Below, piece after piece: positions 5,656-52,275 of a stretch of 64,000 bases of DNA (position 1 is the first letter of the stretch; the number at the start of each line of letters is the position of its first letter). The stretch is from Antedon mediterranea (lineage: Eukaryota; Echinodermata; Crinoidea; Comatulida; Antedonidae). Where the stretch lies: assembly GCF_964355755.1 (NCBI RefSeq), contig NC_092672.1, positions 3,720,001 through 3,784,000 of the forward strand, written 5' to 3'. The translations under genes were made by a program, and so were the position numbers. Below the pieces are notes generated by a model. The model saw only the letters and a list, made by a program, of their open reading frames with translations, was not told the DNA's origin and ran no database searches.

Positions 5656-6587
5656 AGGTAGTCGGCGCTAGTTCCGTTTCGCACCTGTTTTTATTTCGAC
5701 TTCCTTTTGACTCCAAATTGTTAAGCAACTTATTGTGAATACCACACCTTAAAATTGGGCCTCATAAGTACTTTTATGAAGAAGAATCACATAAAAAGTA
5801 ACTAATAAATCCTTAAATTGATGATTTTACCATGGAGTAACTCCATGATTTTACAGACATTTTTCTCGCATACCGTTCGCGAATTTAGCATACTCGAAGT
5901 TCAATATTTTCGTTTCTATGGAGCGCCAAAAGAGCAACAACAATAGATGGTTAAAAACTCAGTGGAATGCGTCTTCTTTTAATGCATTTATTATTGAAAT
6001 ACACGTTTAATTTTAATATATTTTGTCAATAAAAATGCTGTAACATTTTACTGCTAATAATTTGCTGTTTTCAAATAGCAACCAACCCTAGACCTAAGAG
6101 TAAGACTAAGTAAGAGGAATATTATTTAGATCAGGTATACCCCTACAGTACATGTAATATGATGATGAATTTGTCGATTTTCATTCCTAAAAGTTCCTGC
6201 AAAAACCATGTACAGTATCAACAGTAATATTTTTGTTGCATTGACATTGACAAAATATGATAAAATTGAACGTAATTTTCACCAATAAATGCATTAAATA
6301 TACGCAATTTATTGAGTTTTTAGCCCTCTATTATGATTGCTCTTTTGGCGCTCCATAGAAACAACAACATTGAACATGGAGTATGCGAAATTCACGAACC
6401 GATGTGCGAGAAACACGTCTGTAAATTCATCAATTTAAAGGATTTATTTTTTACTTTTTGTGTGATCTCCTTCGTAAAAATATTTTTGAGGCCTAATTCT
6501 AAGGTTTGGTACTCACGATAAAGTTACTTAACCAATTTTGAGTCGAAATAAACGACAGGTGCGAAACGGAACTAGCGCCAGGTAGTC
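5656..6587. mobile_element. 916-bp palindromic DNA transposon with 8-bp target duplication
   Basis: The element at 5664-6579 begins GGCGCTAGTTCCGTTTCGCA and ends with its reverse complement. Complementarity continues inward for over 300 bp on each side (for example TGGCGCTCCATAGAAAC at 6348 pairs with GTTTCTATGGAGCGCCA at 5911). It is flanked by direct repeats AGGTAGTC at 5656-5663 and 6580-6587. No transposase frame is present, so it is a non-autonomous foldback-type element; an 8-bp duplication suits hAT-like or related superfamilies. Confidence 0.85.
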
Positions 6588-7661
6588 TAGGGAGGTCTAG
6601 TAGTAGGATAGGATAGGCCTACAAAACAAATACAGTAATTATAAATAATAAGACATGAGAAAGGCTATTTTAGGCCTAATTATTTCCTAACTAGGCATAG
6701 GCTAGGCCTACTAGAATTCAAGATTCAAATGAAATTATGTGAAGTACCAGTCACTTGATTTTTCTTCCACTTCAAGCAACCTTGCTCAACCTCCAATTCA
6801 CGGTTCCAAACAATTGGTGTTGAAAAATTCCTAAATCTATTATTGGAGCATGACAAATTTTGATTTATTTATCAATCAGGAATAGACCATTATTATTACC
6901 AATATAGTTTACTTGCTGAAACCCTTTTTTCCTCGTTATTTAAATGAAACTCAATATTATGTACAATATATCTCATGTTAAACTATTATTATTAAGTGTA
7001 AACGTTAATTAGCAATACCTCGTATGGTATACCAATAAATATTTCTATGTTTATGTGTACATAATTCTCCCTAAACAAAAGTCGACATGTCCGATTTGGT
7101 TTGCAAATTGTATGGAACGCCGATTACGTAATATTAAAGTTATACGTAAGCGTATTTTAAATTACCTGTCATAAAAAAAATTGGATAAAACGGGGAAAAA
7201 AATAGCTAATTAATTGATTAATTAATTAATGGCAAAAAATTCAGGATGAATGCATGTGGTCATTTTGCAGGCACACTCTTCCTCCTCTCTCTATGATGAC
7301 GGTCACCCTCCTCAAGCACTATCTGTGCAACAGGTTCTAGGACACCTACCCCCTAGACAGTTACCCCCCGGATGTTTACCACCCGGACAACTACCCCCTT
7401 AGGACAACTACCCCCCGGACAACTACCCCCCGGACAACTACCCCCTTAGGACAACTACCCCCTTAGGATAACAACCCCCCGGACAACTACCCCCCGGACA
7501 ACCACCCCCTTAGGACAACTACCCCCTTAGGATAACTACCCCCCGGGTAACTACCCCCCGGTCAACTACCCCCGGTCAACTACCCCCCGGTCAACTACCC
7601 CCCCCCCCATCCAAAAGTAGACAAATATATAGGACCGGTTTCTGTAAAAATGAAATCATCT

Positions 7662-8148
7662 GTTTTTAACGGGTGTTTCGAAACTAGAGACCCGAAACCA
7701 GAGACCTGACACGAGACCCAATACGAAAAGGGAGACCTATATTTGGGTCTCCCTTTTCGTATATTAGGGTCTCCCTTTTCGTATAGTGTGGTCTCTCTTT
7801 TCGTATAGTGGGGTCTCCCTTTTCTTATAGTGGGTCTCCCTTTTCTTATAGTGGGTCTCCCTTTTCGTATATTTGGGTTTCCCATTTTGTATATTTGGGT
7901 CTCCCTTTCGTATAATTGGGTCTCCCTTTTCGTATATTTAGGTCTCCCTTTTCGTATATTAGGGTCTCCCTTTTCGTATAGTGGGGTCTCCCTTTTCGTA
8001 TAGTGGGGTCTCCCTTTTCGTATAGTGGGGTCTCCCTTTTCGTACGTGGGTCTCCCTTTTCGTATATTTAGGTCTCCCTTTTCGTATTGGGTCTCGGGTC
8101 TCTGGTCTCTGGTCTCGGGTCTCTAGTTTCGAAACACCCGTTTTTAAC
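7662..8148. mobile_element. Nested 469-bp foldback element with minisatellite core and 9-bp target duplication
   Basis: The element at 7671-8139 starts GGGTGTTTCGAAACTAGAGA and ends with the exact reverse complement. Direct repeats GTTTTTAAC flank it at 7662-7670 and 8140-8148. The core (about 7730-8090) is a tandem array of a roughly 21-bp unit (GGGTCTCCCTTTTCGTATAGT), which gives an open minus-strand frame of low complexity that is not a gene. Confidence 0.88.
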
Positions 8149-8189
8149 CGATTATTCTGTTTAACAGCACGCTAGACCCTAGATGTGCT

Positions 8190-8410
8190 AGATTTAAAGT
8201 ACCGTATTTATTGAAAAAACGGCCTGGGCTGTTTATTGTTTAGGTGGTTTTTAGGTGGACATTTATTGGAAGAAAGTTGTTTATTCAATGGGAGGGGTAT
8301 AATCTAATGGAAATAGACGCCGATTATTCCATATGATGTTTCATGGGAGTGACATGGTCACCGTTTATTTGAGGGGAATTTATTTAAAGATCGACGTTTA
8401 TTCGGTGAGT
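8190..8410 (+). repeat. Dispersed repeat with GTTTATT phrases
   Basis: GTTTATT/ATTTATT phrases recur with GAGGGG and ATTGGAAG words between the nested element and the G-rich arm. It looks like a short internally repetitive element; class not recognised. Confidence 0.35.
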
Positions 8411-9384
8411 GAACATTGAGGTCAAATATCAAAAGTCATATTATTCTTCAAGTGTACAAAAATACATATATGACAAATTTGAGACAAAAATTAATTCTTT
8501 TAAGACCAGTGGTTATCGAAGCATTGTCCTGACGCAAAAATTATTATTATTATTAGCGAACCCAGTCTTTACAGTAAATACAGGAAGTACTATATAATAC
8601 GTTCGACTATCCTATGATCATGTGTGACAATCTTCAGTTTATACCAGGCTATATTTATGTTCAATCTTTTACTTTTGTTTACAATAATGAATAGTAATTC
8701 GTCATTAAAATATAGTTATTAATTCCTATTATACACTGTTGCAGAGTAAGGTTGTTGAATGGTCTGGGTGGTTAGGGTGTTCTAAAGGGATAGTTTTCTG
8801 GGTGGTAATTGTCCGGGGGGTAATTGTTCCTAGGGGGTAATTGTCCGGGGGGTAGTTGTCCAGGGGGTAGTTGTCCTAAGGGGGTTGTTGTCCTAAGGGG
8901 GTAGTTGTCCGGGGGGTATTTGTCCGGGGGGTAGTTGTCCTAAAGGGGTAGTTGTCCTAAGGGGGTAGTGGTCCAGGTGGTGGTTGTCCGGGGGGTAGTT
9001 GTCCGGGGGGTAAATTTCCAGGGGGTGAATATCCGGATACGGTGCAACAGCCTCCTGTAGTGTGTAATGGATGGAGCTGCCGAGGCAGCCATGACATTTG
9101 GCTTGACTTTTTCTAAAGTATGTTTAAATAAACAGAATTCATTATTATTTGTAGTTTTAGTATTTTACTGATATTTTAATATTTTGTGTTCTCCAGGCCT
9201 ACCTTCTTCTTGCAGACATTATGCGGAGATTTATAGCCTATACCACCACGTGGTAAAAAAACGTGTTTAAACATGCATGTGTTCCTTACTTACTGGTGTC
9301 AATCATGCATCACCATGATGATGCGCGCACATGAGACGAGTTCAGATTAAATTTGGTAATGTTCTCAGAGGGCGTCCTTAATTT

Positions 9385-15626: not shown

Positions 15627-26908
<11,282 letters not shown>

Positions 26909-33800: not shown

Positions 33801-36800
33801 AGTATAATCCATGAACTATCCCCTCAGAGCCTCTCCACAAGCCACAATAAACCAGATAAATATCCAATCATGTTATAATAATGCAATAAACGGTTATTTG
33901 ATTGACCGTTGTTGACCTGTAGCATCTTGAATGTTTGACCGTCTGAGCGTATTACATTTTTGTTTATGTTAACATTGTGCGATTTGTACAGTAGCATCAT
34001 GACCGCCTGAGCATAATTCATTTTGGATAATTTGTTAATAATCACCACTCACTGTTTTTAATTGTTTTTTGGGGGAACAACAGTCGATTATAAAAATTAC
34101 ATTTTTTTAATCTATTTTTATTTGTATGTAGAATAGAATAGAAACAGGCTCTATAATTGAACATACAATAATTCAATGTCAAACAATCTAGGAAATGATG
34201 AGTATAGACAATGAAACAAATTACCTTTCGTTTTTGTTGATTGATGACCTTCTTATGCAATCAATACCGGAATGATCGCTTTTTCATGTTGGTTTTCAAT
34301 GATACTGCATGTACACAGTAGTAAATGGCTAATTCTGTAATTTTCATTAGTGGGCATTGGATTGTTTGTTTCTGTTTGTAATGTAGAGTATTTTACTTTA
34401 AAAAGAACCAAGAAACCAAAAGCTCTGTCTACAATATCAAACTAGTTTGACAAAAAAAGTGTGATGTACCCAAATATGGTAGTGATATGTCCAAATATGG
34501 TAGTGATATGACATCGTGTCTATATATGGGCACATCACATTTTGTTGTCACATAAAGTTTTTTGATAGTGTAGACAGAGGTTTAGAAACACCTGAGAATG
34601 TATCTAATGGTATTATACCAATAAATTGACAGTTTATAAATGATTTGAGAAAGAAAAATTATATTGTGCCAAACATTATACAGTACATGTACCTATTTCC
34701 TTATCCACATACCAAGTGAACTATGGTATTATTTTTATTTGAAAGCTTTTCCTTTTTGTCAACAAATAGTATGCTTTATATGGAGTTGCTACCAGCCATA
34801 TTTCAGGGGGTTTTAACTATTTTTTATGAATTACTGTAGAATAGTAAGTTATTCATTCGTTGGTACAAAGGGCCGCTTTATGTTGGGTGGTTTCAATTTA
34901 GAGAGGACCTGGTTTTTAAGGAATTTACTTAGGTTGGAAATTACTATAAAAGACTGGTGTTAAGCCTGGAGAGCACTGGACTTAATTTGGTCAAATTAAA
35001 ACACTCACTAGCTAAATTTAAAACAATAGTTAAGATTCCCTTTTGGGGTTAAATATACCAAGCCCCAACAGTTGACTTTACTGACCACTGTATGCTCATT
35101 AGAACTGAACTTACAGTACCGCGGTCTTCGTAAAACTAAACCATGCTATAAAATAAAGTCCAATACCATAATGAAAAATAATGATTGGCCATGTTTAGTT
35201 TGAATAAAGTTATTCACTCTTATTGCAAACAATGACTTAGATTTAACATTTTTTAAACCAGTCCAGTGTGAACAAAGGTTTAGTTCAACAGGTACACAGT
35301 ACTCATTAAAATAAAGAGGGTGTGGTTTTTTTCACCTGTAGCTAGTTATCAAGAAAGTGCAGGTACTGTAATTACAGTAACATTTCCTCAATAAGTCAAC
35401 AGGATTCTTTGCAGACCTACTTTCATACTGTGTTCTTTGTTTGGTCACTATACTGTACTCGTAAACATTTTTTTAAATTTATTTGTAGTACAGTAATAAT
35501 AACAATGAAAATAATACCTTTTGTATTCAGTTTATTTATTGATATTTACTATTAAATATGTTTATTAACTAGACTTCATGTTTATTGTTAGACATTTATA
35601 TCGCCTAAAAAGGAGAGAATAAACTACAGTAGAACCAGAGAAGAGTTAAATTACAATTAATTACAATGTAATTTAACTTTTCCCTGGTAGAATTTATAAC
35701 TACAGTATATGAATATCCCCAATTGCGTAATTAACCCCACCCTCTTATTAGTGACCACACCCATAAACTATACAGTAGCTCTGAACATTAATGTTGTTGA
35801 TAATTCTGTTAATAATAATTAATAATTTTGTTGGCCCGAAATATACGTTTATTTGGTTTCCTGTCATTTATTAAAAATAATTTTAATGGTTTTTAGTATG
35901 AACATAACTAAACATTAACAACATGATAGAATTCTTCTAAGAAATTATATTTTTTAACACATTTTGAAGTGAATTTCACTATAGTACTGTATAAGCAATA
36001 TAGAATAGTCACTGAATCAGTTGTACAACATGAAATTACATGTTCACCTTTTCATTTACCTGCGCTACATCATTGACCTCATGTTGACCTCAATCCGTGT
36101 CTGCTTCGCATATCTACTTATCTATAATGAATGACTAATAGATATTTTTTTTCTGATTATAATGTTTTTTAATGATAAAGTAGAAAGATACCAAGAATTA
36201 AACAACAATAAAATGGTAGATAAGTATCTCCAGAGATTACAAAGAAAACATTAATATCAATACTAAACTGTACAGTACTGGCTTTGTCTAGCATAACATG
36301 TAATTTACATAATGCGTTTCTGTGTGATATATCTGATTGTACATTTGCTTCAAGATTGTATCATAAATAATAATAATATGTAATGCATTATGAACATCAT
36401 TACTACAGGTCTTCGATATATTTAATTAACTATAAAACTACAGTTGTGAAATTGCAATTTAATTTTGCAATATTACTGAGATAACGTTTTTTGCGTACAT
36501 AAGAAATAACATTAACAAGAGTCAAGAACGGAGATATGTATTTTGCAAGCTTTATTCATAATAATCTAAGATAGGATGTAGTATTTTTTATGAATACATT
36601 TTGTCATCATTAAAGATGTATTTCCCCCTACACGCCTCTCCCCCAAACAAATTAACATGAAGATTAATAAAAGACCTTAAATGGGCCATTTTGTAGTTTT
36701 AATTTTTTTAAATGACAAAAAATAATAATCCACTAAAATGACAAAATAAATGGTTAAATTCAACCAAAAACTCTTTGGCTAGTAGTAGCCAATTGGACTA

Positions 36801-42800: not shown

Positions 42801-45800
42801 GCTCCACAATGCAAGAATTCATTTTGAATACACCAGAACCTCTCCTTTTGGTGAGGGACATCACTATTTATGGGAACTCTTTCCTGGATGAGGGTAAATA
42901 TATATGAGACACCCGTATTAAGAGGACACTTTCTTATGTCTCAAAATTGTCCCCTTAATAAGTGCTCTACTGTACTCTTAATAGCCTAAAGCTATACATT
43001 AATTGGCAGATCTACTCATAAAACTCTTTCTTCTCATCACAAATGTATGGCCAGTATGCCTTTTATATGTACTGTTGATTCTCTTAGGTCAGCATTCCAA
43101 GCCTTGCACAGAGCGAGTATGAGAGCCAGACGAAACAATTACATCCCAGATGGACTAAACCATTCCTGGACAGGGTATTACAGGAGCAGTGTTAGATCGA
43201 CTGAGTCATGTATCAACGAATGGGATTACATCAAGGATATTGTTGTTCTTCGTCCTGAACATCACACTATTCTTAGCTTTGTGTATGTTACAATGAAAAT
43301 AAACATTTCTGTTTAAAACTCTGTCTACATGAACTTTATGTGACAAAAAATGTGATGTGATGTGCCCATATATGGACATGATGATGTCATATCACTACCA
43401 TATTTGGGCATATGACTACCATATTTGAGCACATCACACTTTTTTTATAGTGTAGACAGAGCTTAACAGTGTTTTCATAGGATGACACCCAAACATCATG
43501 GTTACATGATGGTAGCAGGTACTATTTTGCATTGAGGTCAAGGTAGAGGTCAACTCTCATGGTGCTTGGTGCACATAAATACTGCCCTATTCAGTTCAGT
43601 CATGTTTTAAAATTGATAGATAGAGATAACTCTCTACCACCAATATTATTTATTTACAGTACTTTTAATGGGACACATCTATATAGGGGACATCCCTATT
43701 AAGAGGACGTCTTCCTACTGTAAAACAAATAATAGGCAACATATTCTTTTAAACTACAGCAAACACGTATTCAGGTAACACCCCCTTTAAGTGGGCACTT
43801 TGTTGAGTCCTGAAGGTGTACTCTTAATAGGGGTATACTGTCATTTTGAAATAGATTACTCTTTAAACTGTTTTTCCAATTTTGTTAACAATATTTGTAT
43901 AATTATACAGCTTATACAGTGACTACAGCTGCCTTATTATAAACTTCTACATAATTTTGAAACGGTAAATTCCTTCTAAAACTGATTATTTTTGTTTTTC
44001 AGCAAAGAAATCTATGCAGGTCTATGTCGACCGTCCGAGAAAGACATTCTACACCGGTTGATCCGAGTGAAGTTAAAAGAAATCATGTTGGAGGTTGACC
44101 TCGACGAAATAACATGTAGACAGGTGAACAAATTTAGACCAATAATTTGGTATTTAAAGCTCTATCTACACTACCACTATGTGATGTGGCCATATATAGA
44201 CACGATGATGTCATATCACTACCATATTTGGGCATATCACTACCATATTTGGGCACATCACACTTTTTTTGTCAAACTAGTTTTATAGTGTAGACAGAGC
44301 TTAATGCTAACTTCTTGATAGATATCTGACCAAGGATATCTGACACTTTTCTTGCCAAACTCAAAATTTTTTCAGTTTACAAACTAAAGTTTGCCACTGT
44401 AGACTATGGTTTAATTTCCTTGCAAATAAATGAATTCTAGATTTGTTTGACCTTCTTCTGTTTAAATTTTTTCACTTTCTCTTTTCAGATTCGGCTACAG
44501 TTGGAAGATCGAATGGATAAAGACTTAAAAGAATACAAAGGCTTTATTGACGAGCAGATGCTGTTGATATTGGGTCAGATCGATGCTCCTTCACTTATAT
44601 TTGACTACTTATACCTAGTAAGCCTTTTTATCCTATACATTAATTCTATATTGCTGATACCATAAGGTCAAAGGTTATTATCTCTTATAAAAGCTAAAAT
44701 AATTTTATGTATTTTATTTCAGTAGACAGGTAAGGTAAAGGTGAGTGCCGTGTTCATTCTGAACGTAGGGGAATGAGCTGTTAGGAGCTCATTGTACTAA
44801 GCCTCGGCATTATGTGGTAGGGTGGCCAGTTCCTTTCCACGCCGCCTTTTTTCTCCTTAGTATTTTCAACCAGGTACTCATTTACAGCTGAGTGGACTGG
44901 GAGTTGTCGGGAATTGAACCCGGGTCTATCTGTATGACAGTTAAGTGTCCTAACCACTCGGCTATCCAACTCCTGTTGCAATTGATACCATAAATTATAT
45001 ATTTCACCATATGGCCTGGCTACAAAATTTAGTAAAAATTACTACACTTTAGCTTGGTATCTGAATTCTAGCCTAAATTAGGACATTGGATTTAAAGAAG
45101 GAATCTACTATGTCTAAAGGCAAATTTACACAGACGTATAAAAATATAGAATCTATGTTATTTCTTATGACCATTTATACAAAATGCGGAGAGGATGGGC
45201 GTTTTCCACTCAGGTGGATGCAGTTTCCGCTTTCCATTACCGCTCCTCATCTATGTAAATTGGCTTTAATGCAGATCTGTTTTTATTATTCCAGGGTTCT
45301 GAGTGGAATGCATCTAACTACGATGAGTTAGAAGAAAATCAGTAAGAATTGTTTTAAACCTTAAAGCACTATGTAATAAATCATTGAAATAGTAGTAACA
45401 GGATTCAGTGTACACGCTCTCTTTTGACAGCTAAAATACATTGTAATTGAAACTACTGTGGAGTAGCTTGTGTCAGGGTGTTGAGTAATTGGTCAGATGT
45501 TTTGCCCTACTCTGACGTAATGTGTACTTTATACTAAGTACATTAAGAATATTTGCGAAAATGTAATTCTCAGGTGGGACTCGAACCTACGACCTCCAGA
45601 ACACTGACGTTCATACCTCTAGACCACCAGGCTTGCGCTAATGACTAGAGGTTAGATTTTAGCCCAAGTAAGCAGCGGGTACTGCACCACAGGATTGTAA
45701 TTGTTTGTAACTACTTGAGAGTTTGTTGGCATTATTGTCAGTGTACTTAGTATAAAATACAAATTACGTCAGAGTAGGGCAAAAAATCTGACCAAAAGCT

Positions 45801-50560: not shown

Positions 50561-50899
50561 GTTAATACTAACAATAAAAACGTCAAATAATTTCAAACAC
50601 AATTTTAACATAAAAATAACAATCAATAATAAGAAAACGGGTCAAATATACTATAGCATATATATTGAAATATGAAAACTGTTTAAACTTTGAATATGGG
50701 TCGGGGTTGCATCGTACCGTGAGATGATGGATGAAAATTCTCACTTTAGTAATTACTTACATATACATTTAAAAAATCTGTGAACAACTGATTATGACTT
50801 AAATAATGGATGTGAATATGCACTCCAGTAATATGATCATGAATAAGAAAATATGCATCATTATTATCATAAGTATCAACCATATAATGTTGTGATTAT

Positions 50900-52275
50900 G
50901 ACGAATAAAAACGATACAATAAATGATGAAGAATAAAACAATACAATAAATGATGATGAATAAAAACAATACAATAAATGATGATGAATAAAAACAATAC
51001 AATAAATGATGATGAATAAAAACAATACAATAAATGATGATGTATAAAAACAATACAATAAATGATGATGAATAAAAACGATACAATAAATGATGATGAA
51101 TAAAAATGATACAATAAATGATGATGAATAAAAACAATACAATAAATGATGATGAATAAAAACGATACAATAAATGATGATGAATAAAAACAATACAATA
51201 AATGATGATGAATAAAAACGATACAATAAATGATGATGAATAAAAACAATACAATAAATGATGATGAATAAAAACAATACAATAAATGATGATGAATAAA
51301 AACAATAAATGATGATGAATAAAAACAATACAATAAATGATGATGAATAAAAACAATACAATAAATGATGATGAATAAAAACGATACAATAAATGATGAT
51401 GAATAAAAACAATACAATAAATGATGATGAATAAAAACAATACAATAAATGATGATGAATAAAAACAATACAATAAATGATGATGAATAAAAACAATACA
51501 ATAAATGATGATGTATAAAAACAATACAATAAATGATGATGAATAAAAACGATACAATAAATGATGATGAATAAAAATGATACAATAAATGATGATGAAT
51601 AAAAACAATACAATAAATGATGATGAATAAAAACGATACAATAAATGATGATGAATAAAAACAATACAATAAATGATGATGAATAAAAACGATACAATAA
51701 ATGATGATGAATAAAAACAATACAATAAATGATGATGAATAAAAACAATACAATAAATGATGATGAATAAAAACAATAAATGATGATGAATAAAAACAAT
51801 ACAATAAATGATGATGAATAAAAACAATACAATAAATGATGATGAATAAAAACGATACAATAAATGATGATGAATAAAAACAATACAATAAATGATGATG
51901 AATAAAAACAATACAATAAATGATGATGAATAAAAACGATACAATAAATGATGATGAATAAAAACAATACAATAAATGATGATGAATAAAAACGATACAA
52001 TAAATGATGATGAATAAAAACGATACAATAAATGATGATGAATGAAAACGATACAATAAATGATGATGAATGAAAACGATACAATAAATGATGATGAATA
52101 AAAACGATACAATAAATAATGATGAATAAAAACGATACAATAAATGATGATGAATAAAAACGATACAATAAATGATGATGAATAAAAACAATACAATAAA
52201 TGATGATGAATAAAAACGATACAATAAATGATGATGAATAAAAACAATACAATAAATGATGATGAATAAAAACAA
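50900..52275. repeat. 28-bp tandem satellite array with 471-bp higher-order repeat
   Basis: About 49 copies of AATAAATGATGATGAATAAA + AACAATAC (28 bp), with A/G alternation in CAATAC/CGATAC. A 23-bp short unit at 51301 recurs at 51772, and the variant GATGTATAAA at about 51040 recurs at about 51511, both 471 bp apart, so 16 full units plus one short unit were duplicated as a block. Since 28 is not divisible by three and the reverse unit has no stop, all three minus frames stay open for over 450 codons; these are not genes. Confidence 0.95.

Follow-up and report, generated by a model that had tools for sequence, protein, structure and literature searches.

A young foldback family of probable Mutator type and an embedded second foldback element in the crinoid Antedon mediterranea

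Nested foldback elements in the window

The window, a stretch of 64,000 nucleotides of the Antedon mediterranea genome, contains two foldback elements, one of which lies inside the other. An overview of their features is given in Table 1. The outer element is a copy of a dispersed family, termed family A, whereas the inner one derives, in shortened form, from another family, termed family B. Both had been placed correctly by a first-pass annotation from the sequence alone, the outer one with GTGCAACAG as duplication and inverted arms of tandem units, the inner one with GTTTTTAAC as duplication and inverted ends. The tandem core that was described for the inner element is present as well, with a period of 22 bp rather than 21 bp.

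Table 1 Features of the two nested elements (window positions)
Feature	Position	Strand	Remark
Outer element	7333..9041	+	family A, foldback, most likely MULE-type; copy without transposase gene
Left target-site duplication of the outer element, GTGCAACAG	7325..7333	.	8-bp reading: 7325-7332
Right target-site duplication of the outer element, GTGCAACAG	9042..9050	.
Left-tip imperfect palindrome of the outer element, GTTCTAGGAC	7334..7343	+	self-complementary at 8/10 positions
Left C-rich arm	7340..7603	+	16 units of approximately GGACAACTACCCCC(C/TTA), spacing mostly 15 or 17
Inner element	7671..8139	+	short foldback derivative of family B, probable cargo of family A
Left duplication of the inner element, GTTTTTAAC	7662..7670	.
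Right duplication of the inner element, GTTTTTAAC	8140..8148	.
Left terminal palindrome of family B, perfect, GTTTCGAAAC	7675..7684	+
Right terminal palindrome of family B, perfect, GTTTCGAAAC	8126..8135	+
22-bp minisatellite array of family B	7738..8087	+	16.1 copies
Subterminal 7-bp GGGTCTC array of family B	8089..8123	+	5 copies
A core common to the MULE-bearing form	8140..8544	+	junction at core position 405
Stretch replacing the ~3 kb MULE region of the longer A form	8545..8777	+
Right G-rich arm	8787..9026	+	14 units, counted on the complementary strand
Right-tip perfect palindrome of the outer element, TATCCGGATA	9030..9039	+

The arms of the outer element are inverted with respect to each other, being 91% complementary over as many as 172 nt; the spacing of mostly 15 or 17 bp applies to the units of both. 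The family A tip on the right is self-complementary at 10 of 10 positions. Perfect 10-bp palindromes start at 134 of 63,991 positions of the window and those with at least 8 of 10 matching positions at 1654, so the left tip taken alone carries little weight. The inverted ends of the inner element extend over 59 nt at 86%, flank included, and the family B tip is self-complementary at all ten positions. Long terminal inverted repeats (TIRs) with tandem-repeat domains of varying unit number, which define foldback elements, are present, and the combination of a palindromic tip with subterminal tandem repeats known from the Muta1 element (see below) is found in both families. The outer duplication can alternatively be read as the 8 bp GTGCAACA (7325-7332 and 9042-9049), in which case the element spans 7333-9041 instead of 7334-9041. 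The shorter reading may apply, since other A copies begin with GG and many of them have 8-bp duplications.

Several other repeats are found in the window. The 21-bp unit CCCAAATATGGTAGTGATATG occurs at 20 places between positions 67 and 60248 (≤3 mismatches, 0 expected), with several head-to-tail doublets (e.g. 34469-34510 and 44212-44253), and is perhaps part of a dispersed repeat. An inverted pair (5664-6030 and 6246-6579; ~372 aligned nt, 77% identity) is located upstream of the outer element. Tandem arrays are a 28-bp minisatellite at 50898-52275 (49.6 copies, 95% matches) and a 102-bp array at 23321-23955 (6.2 copies, 96% matches).

Copies of family A and their target sites

The whole genome (354 Mb in 18 contigs) was searched for the ends of family A with patterns allowing up to three mismatches. 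The search returned 305 matches for the left end (control 6) and 306 for the right end, a count that is inflated in view of its high control of 123; some of the left ends are internal duplicates. Judged from these end counts, family A comprises roughly 200-300 copies. Among the matches listed, 60 left and 55 right ends were combined into 56 pairs, with 4 left ends remaining unpaired. An exact duplication of at least 8 bp flanks 38 of the 56 pairs (23 of nine, 13 of eight, one of ten and one of twelve bp). The 18 pairs without exact duplication include near matches and evident mispairings, namely spans of 17-21 kb and one left end that is an internal duplicate. When flanks were shuffled, 0 of 10,929 pairings shared at least 6 bp, compared to the 38 real pairs sharing at least 8 bp, and the duplications are therefore not due to chance.

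A similar picture is obtained from the fetched DNA together with the window: exact duplications are found in 29 of 33 A elements (18 of nine, 10 of eight and 1 of twelve bp), where among several left ends the one with the longest duplication was taken, which slightly favours rearranged copies. Three of the other elements have one mismatch (L024+, L063 and L064, the latter two with common flanks) and L069 has no duplication. The 9-bp duplications proposed in the first-pass annotation are thus borne out at most other copies, with lengths of 8, 9 and once 12 bp, but are lacking in exact form in 4 of the 33 elements and 18 of the 56 pairs.

An empty site was analyzed for one A copy other than that of the window. 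This copy, L022, is inserted in an apparent LINE reverse-transcriptase frame. Its flanks, joined with one TATGTTAAC to a query of 280 bases, gave 35 matches: 19 span all 280 bases, a further 3 partly cross the junction, and two correspond to the halves of L022. All six paralogous empty sites that were read (6/6) have the exact junction with the duplication present once. At least at this locus, the duplication therefore arose with the insertion, and the flanking repeats did not precede it, the condition named for refutation at first pass.

These data also bear on the idea that the arms are minisatellites expanded in place, with direct repeats that arose by chance or as array units and without any transposition. 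The arms are indeed tandem arrays, with 10-17 units in 28 left arms (the shortest being an internal duplicate). We nevertheless consider this idea barely credible, as it is at odds with dispersed copies that have unrelated flanks and exact duplications and is contradicted by the empty site of one copy. The mean divergence of the A core among 28 copies is 0.87%, which indicates a recent burst.

A rearranged form of family A, in which the left end is repeated inside the inner array with the flank GGGTCTCCCTTTTC, accounts for 8 of 100 left-end matches listed. Three such copies have duplications of their own (GTATTTTTG, AGGCTATAT and, in L021, GTTTTATT); the rearranged form thus seems to have moved, too.

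Family A and Mutator-like transposases

A genome-wide search for the Pfam MULE domain PF10551, in which all 97 candidates were scored, gave 36 matches. The best match, C2:22961653-22961928, is located between a left and a right end of family A. The corresponding A copy, L028 (C2:22959617-22964275), is 4659 bp long and flanked by the duplication ATTTAAAAG. It follows the A core up to position 405 (window position 8544), continues with ~3 kb of MULE frames and ends with the G-rich arm. A 106-residue piece matches PF10551 with an E-value of 3.7e-16 and has no match among phage records; three other ORF pieces, scanned as pieces only, are without Pfam match, FLYWCH included. The gene region is divided into short frames of 91-181 aa, for which introns and decay are both possible explanations. 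A dispersed repeat of ~110 bp within the MULE region (L028:2141-2253) has dozens of genome matches at ~81-91%.

By eye, no other PF10551 match was found within the listed A ends, so that L028 is the one MULE-domain A copy found; these lists are complete genome-wide at 0 mismatches and, at up to one mismatch, for C1-C2 (left ends) and C1-C3 (right ends), and more such copies are possible. One further PF10551 match, C4:20195859-20195972, is located ~7 kb from an A core match (C4:20187659-20188602). Four further loci (L040-L043) retain 314-527 bp of the gene region, joined to the A core exactly as in L028, and are 97-98% alike; we read them as probable deletion derivatives of the longer A form. 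The insert of L031 was considered as a transposase and discarded, as it reads LINE-like (endonuclease/reverse transcriptase).

The MULE region of L028 could instead be nested in, or captured by, an A element, and family A could be moved by another, unseen transposase. A single full MULE copy with its gene in short frames fits this possibility, as does a related MULE (L044, ~75% DNA identity), which was tried as an arm-bearing relative of family A and rejected because the 7.5 kb fetched contain no A arms. Against it, the 3-kb region has no inverted repeat except 12-base palindromes, and within 40 bases on either side of its junctions the longest shared direct word measures 7 bases, with no direct repeat of at least 8 bp and no shared 7-base inverted word. 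Nothing therefore marks the region as a separate insertion, a very degraded one being possible. The exact core junction is moreover common to four loci, and duplications of 8-9 bp suit MULEs. At another related MULE locus, L045, ~2.5 arm-like CTACCCCC/GACAAC units are found ~1.1 kb from the matched MULE stretch, a weak and at best suggestive link between MULEs and the A arms. On balance, a transposase other than that of L028 appears unlikely.

Family A is most likely a foldback transposon of the Mutator superfamily, like Muta1 and Tm1. A MULE-domain transposase region lies between the element ends (in one copy, in short frames), and target duplications flank 29 of 33 elements and 38 of 56 pairs, all within the Mutator-type range of 8-11 bp except one of twelve bp in each set. 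The likeness to Drosophila FB or Mutator-like elements noted at first pass is upheld in that both families are foldback elements with 8-10-bp duplications and that a MULE domain lies between A ends. FB/NOF elements have long TIRs with tandem domains, as does family A. In the TU elements of sea urchins, the outer domain of the arms consists of 15-bp repeats and the duplications measure 8 bp, and by this description they resemble family A in both respects.

Foldback MULEs with tandem-repeat TIRs are already known (Muta1, PMC5225508; Tm1, PMC3169594; Tetris, PMC4079207; Phantom, PMC6446971). Muta1 of Aedes aegypti is a MULE described as a 'type 2 Foldback' that moves in yeast and makes 8- or 9-bp duplications; its 145-bp TIR consists of a 10-bp imperfect palindromic tip and nine 12-bp tandem repeats with 3-4-bp spacers, and there are more than 300 non-autonomous derivatives with varying unit number (PMC5225508). 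Family A agrees in the 8-9-bp duplications, the palindromic tip followed by subterminal tandem repeats and the many non-autonomous copies. It differs in its longer arms (a left array of 264 bp vs the 145-bp TIR), its different ends and its fixed inner foldback. Tm1 of root-knot nematodes has a composite TIR in which the number of 13-15-bp tandem units varies and the outermost bases are unequal. Its duplications are 8-10 bp long, mostly 9 bp, and it comprises many short forms and one element with a Phantom-type MULE transposase, for which a FLYWCH domain is described (PMC3169594). It shares with family A the variable tandem-unit TIR, the 8-10-bp duplications, the single MULE-bearing element and the many short forms. 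The units are different, and FLYWCH has no match in the A pieces scanned. Nested insertions are noted for single Tm1 elements and not as a fixed domain (PMC3169594), in contrast to the inner element that is fixed as a domain in family A.

Phantom MULEs (group 20, including Muta) are described with animal hosts, 8-10-bp duplications and TIRs of 18-613 bp, with a minisatellite in some (PMC6446971). By description, family A is similar in host, duplications and minisatellite TIRs. For Drosophila Tetris, ~220-bp units, 8-10-bp duplications and no known transposase are reported, a Mutator affiliation is suggested and a sea-urchin foldback is cited (PMC4079207). Tetris and family A share long TIRs with tandem domains and 8-10-bp duplications, Tetris having the units of ~220 bp. 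Family A is hence classed as a probable new member of the foldback MULEs, and the composite is its unusual part. In the open-licence literature, searched by titles and abstract openings, no foldback element fixed inside another and co-amplified with it was found.

By analogy with Muta1, the arm units would be transposase-binding repeats and the palindromic tips the cut ends. A longer A copy would make the MULE transposase, which would bind the 15/17-bp arm units and the palindromic tips, excise A elements and reinsert them with 8-9-bp target duplications; the outer element of the window would be one of the non-autonomous copies of this young family.

Family B and its position within family A

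The ends of family B have 640 matches (295 + 345; control 97). Among those listed, at least seven are at non-A sites, as judged from the flanks by eye. A B pattern excluding the A flank base has 12 matches; one of them, C3:8350073, belongs to an A copy in which a base is altered. Away from A, full-length B copies measure ~1.6-1.7 kb (L046: 1620 bp), and each of their arms contains a 22-bp array. Both ends are present at 7 of the 15 B loci examined (L046-L060); L035 and L039 have one B end each and were read as 0.9-kb pieces. At the seven two-ended loci, read by eye, exact duplications of 9-10 bp are found in three (ATGTTACAGT in L052, TGTACTGTAG in L053, ATCATGCAC in L055) and near-exact ones in three others, with one change in L056 and L058 and a G run blurring L051; in L046 the duplication is absent at the boundary. 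The target sequences differ among B copies away from A. L058 is a 549-bp foldback that resembles the inner element and is located at its own site. Family B is a family in its own right, ~1.6 kb long with 9-10-bp duplications, and distinct from family A. The earlier notion of an active lineage that builds elements from minisatellites is supported in part: both are foldback DNA transposons, but two families are involved and not one lineage.

A partner transposase sharing the ends, to be looked for according to the first-pass annotation, has a candidate for family A in the MULE domain, but no counterpart was found for B: by eye, none of the PF10551 matches comes closer than 100 kb to the B places that were listed, and family B is accordingly left without assignment to a superfamily. 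The insert of L051 was rejected as a B transposase, its frames being read, without family search, as LINE-like endonuclease/reverse transcriptase. Several B copies (L035-L038, L047-L050) have one recognisable end and an array that starts abruptly opposite. A Helentron, considered in view of one-ended copies with arrays, was dropped, as two-ended B copies with 9-10-bp duplications exist.

Within family A, the inner element is located at the identical base and in the same orientation in 20 of 20 fetched copies (the best-scoring 20 after the window), and likewise in all of the 28 full A elements, which stem from 25 sources. The latter set is partly selected, many of its members having been picked via inner-element matches; 11 were picked independently of the inner element by core or end matches (L023, L025-L027, L070-L075 and L077). 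Among ten further A loci, inner borders are found at the identical base in nine (both borders in 7, one in 2). The MULE-bearing L028 belongs to the seven, with the inner element partly rearranged. One A copy without the inner element, L078, measures 255 bp, has a 9-bp duplication and has lost nearly its whole interior. A genome-wide search for an empty A site with a single GTTTTTAAC at up to three mismatches gave none, its 9 matches being right borders of filled copies, and no exact footprint with both GTTTTTAAC duplications within 30 bases was found. Two independent fresh events in one place, as first proposed, are not supported by this fixed position in nearly all copies checked and by the lack of an empty site.

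The inner element might also have inserted repeatedly and independently into one A base. In favour of this, family B is also found away from A, where its insertions are flanked by duplications of 9-10 bp. This site-specific nesting is nonetheless very improbable given one base and orientation in all 20 and all 28 copies, the lack of an empty A site (≤3 mismatches) or footprint, and the differing target sequences of B copies elsewhere. The composite probably goes back to one event, in which a B derivative entered an ancestral A element and was subsequently amplified with it. Before the burst, a short B derivative with 22-bp repeats and GTTTCGAAAC tips would have inserted once, duplicating GTTTTTAAC, and would since have been copied as a passenger of A to roughly 200-300 places. 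We infer this single nesting event together with an L028-type MULE that moved the 1.7-kb copies. The account as a whole, a young foldback MULE family A whose non-autonomous copies carry a once-nested B derivative as passenger, is considered likely.

The inner element is 423-469 bp long in 27 of the 28 full A elements and 1038 bp in one. Its distances are uncorrelated with those of the core (Mantel test on 28 copies: r -0.098, reached or exceeded in 1450 of 2000 permutations); with A cores this alike, the result speaks neither for nor against joint descent. The first 50 bp and last 60 bp of the inner element vary by 2.6% and 9.2%, respectively, compared to 0.9% in the A core, which simple joint descent does not explain; unit exchange or repeat misalignment are possible reasons. 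A composite that is doubly mobile, with permanent B ends inside A and two transposases acting, appears distinctly improbable, and the same applies to the help that B arms could then give to A as extra hairpins, repair templates or by unit exchange. Such help would account for the failure to find an A copy that lacks B but is whole in other respects.

Under the preferred single insertion, one foldback transposon hitch-hikes in another and is multiplied by its host element, a clean case of this kind, and an insertion that looks 'nested' in one stretch of DNA may turn out to be a composite that is old and fixed. Family A is a young and well-sampled foldback family of probable MULE type; it comprises a few hundred copies, one of them with an empty site, and has a likely transposase. 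By copy counting, it could be used to test whether transposition is enhanced by tandem arm units and in what way composite transposons originate.

Other arrangements of family A are tail-to-tail pairs, 8 bp (L021), 711 bp (L022) and 30 bp (L024) apart. These three loci were taken from the top of the hit lists and represent insertions near family members, with overlapping targets in L021. In addition, A ends flanked by CAGGCTAGCAGTAC or ATTTGGATGCATGAC recur as pairs 17-21 kb apart without matching duplications (e.g. C1:9017043-9036058 and C1:11813087-11833736), where A parts are perhaps contained in a larger repeat.
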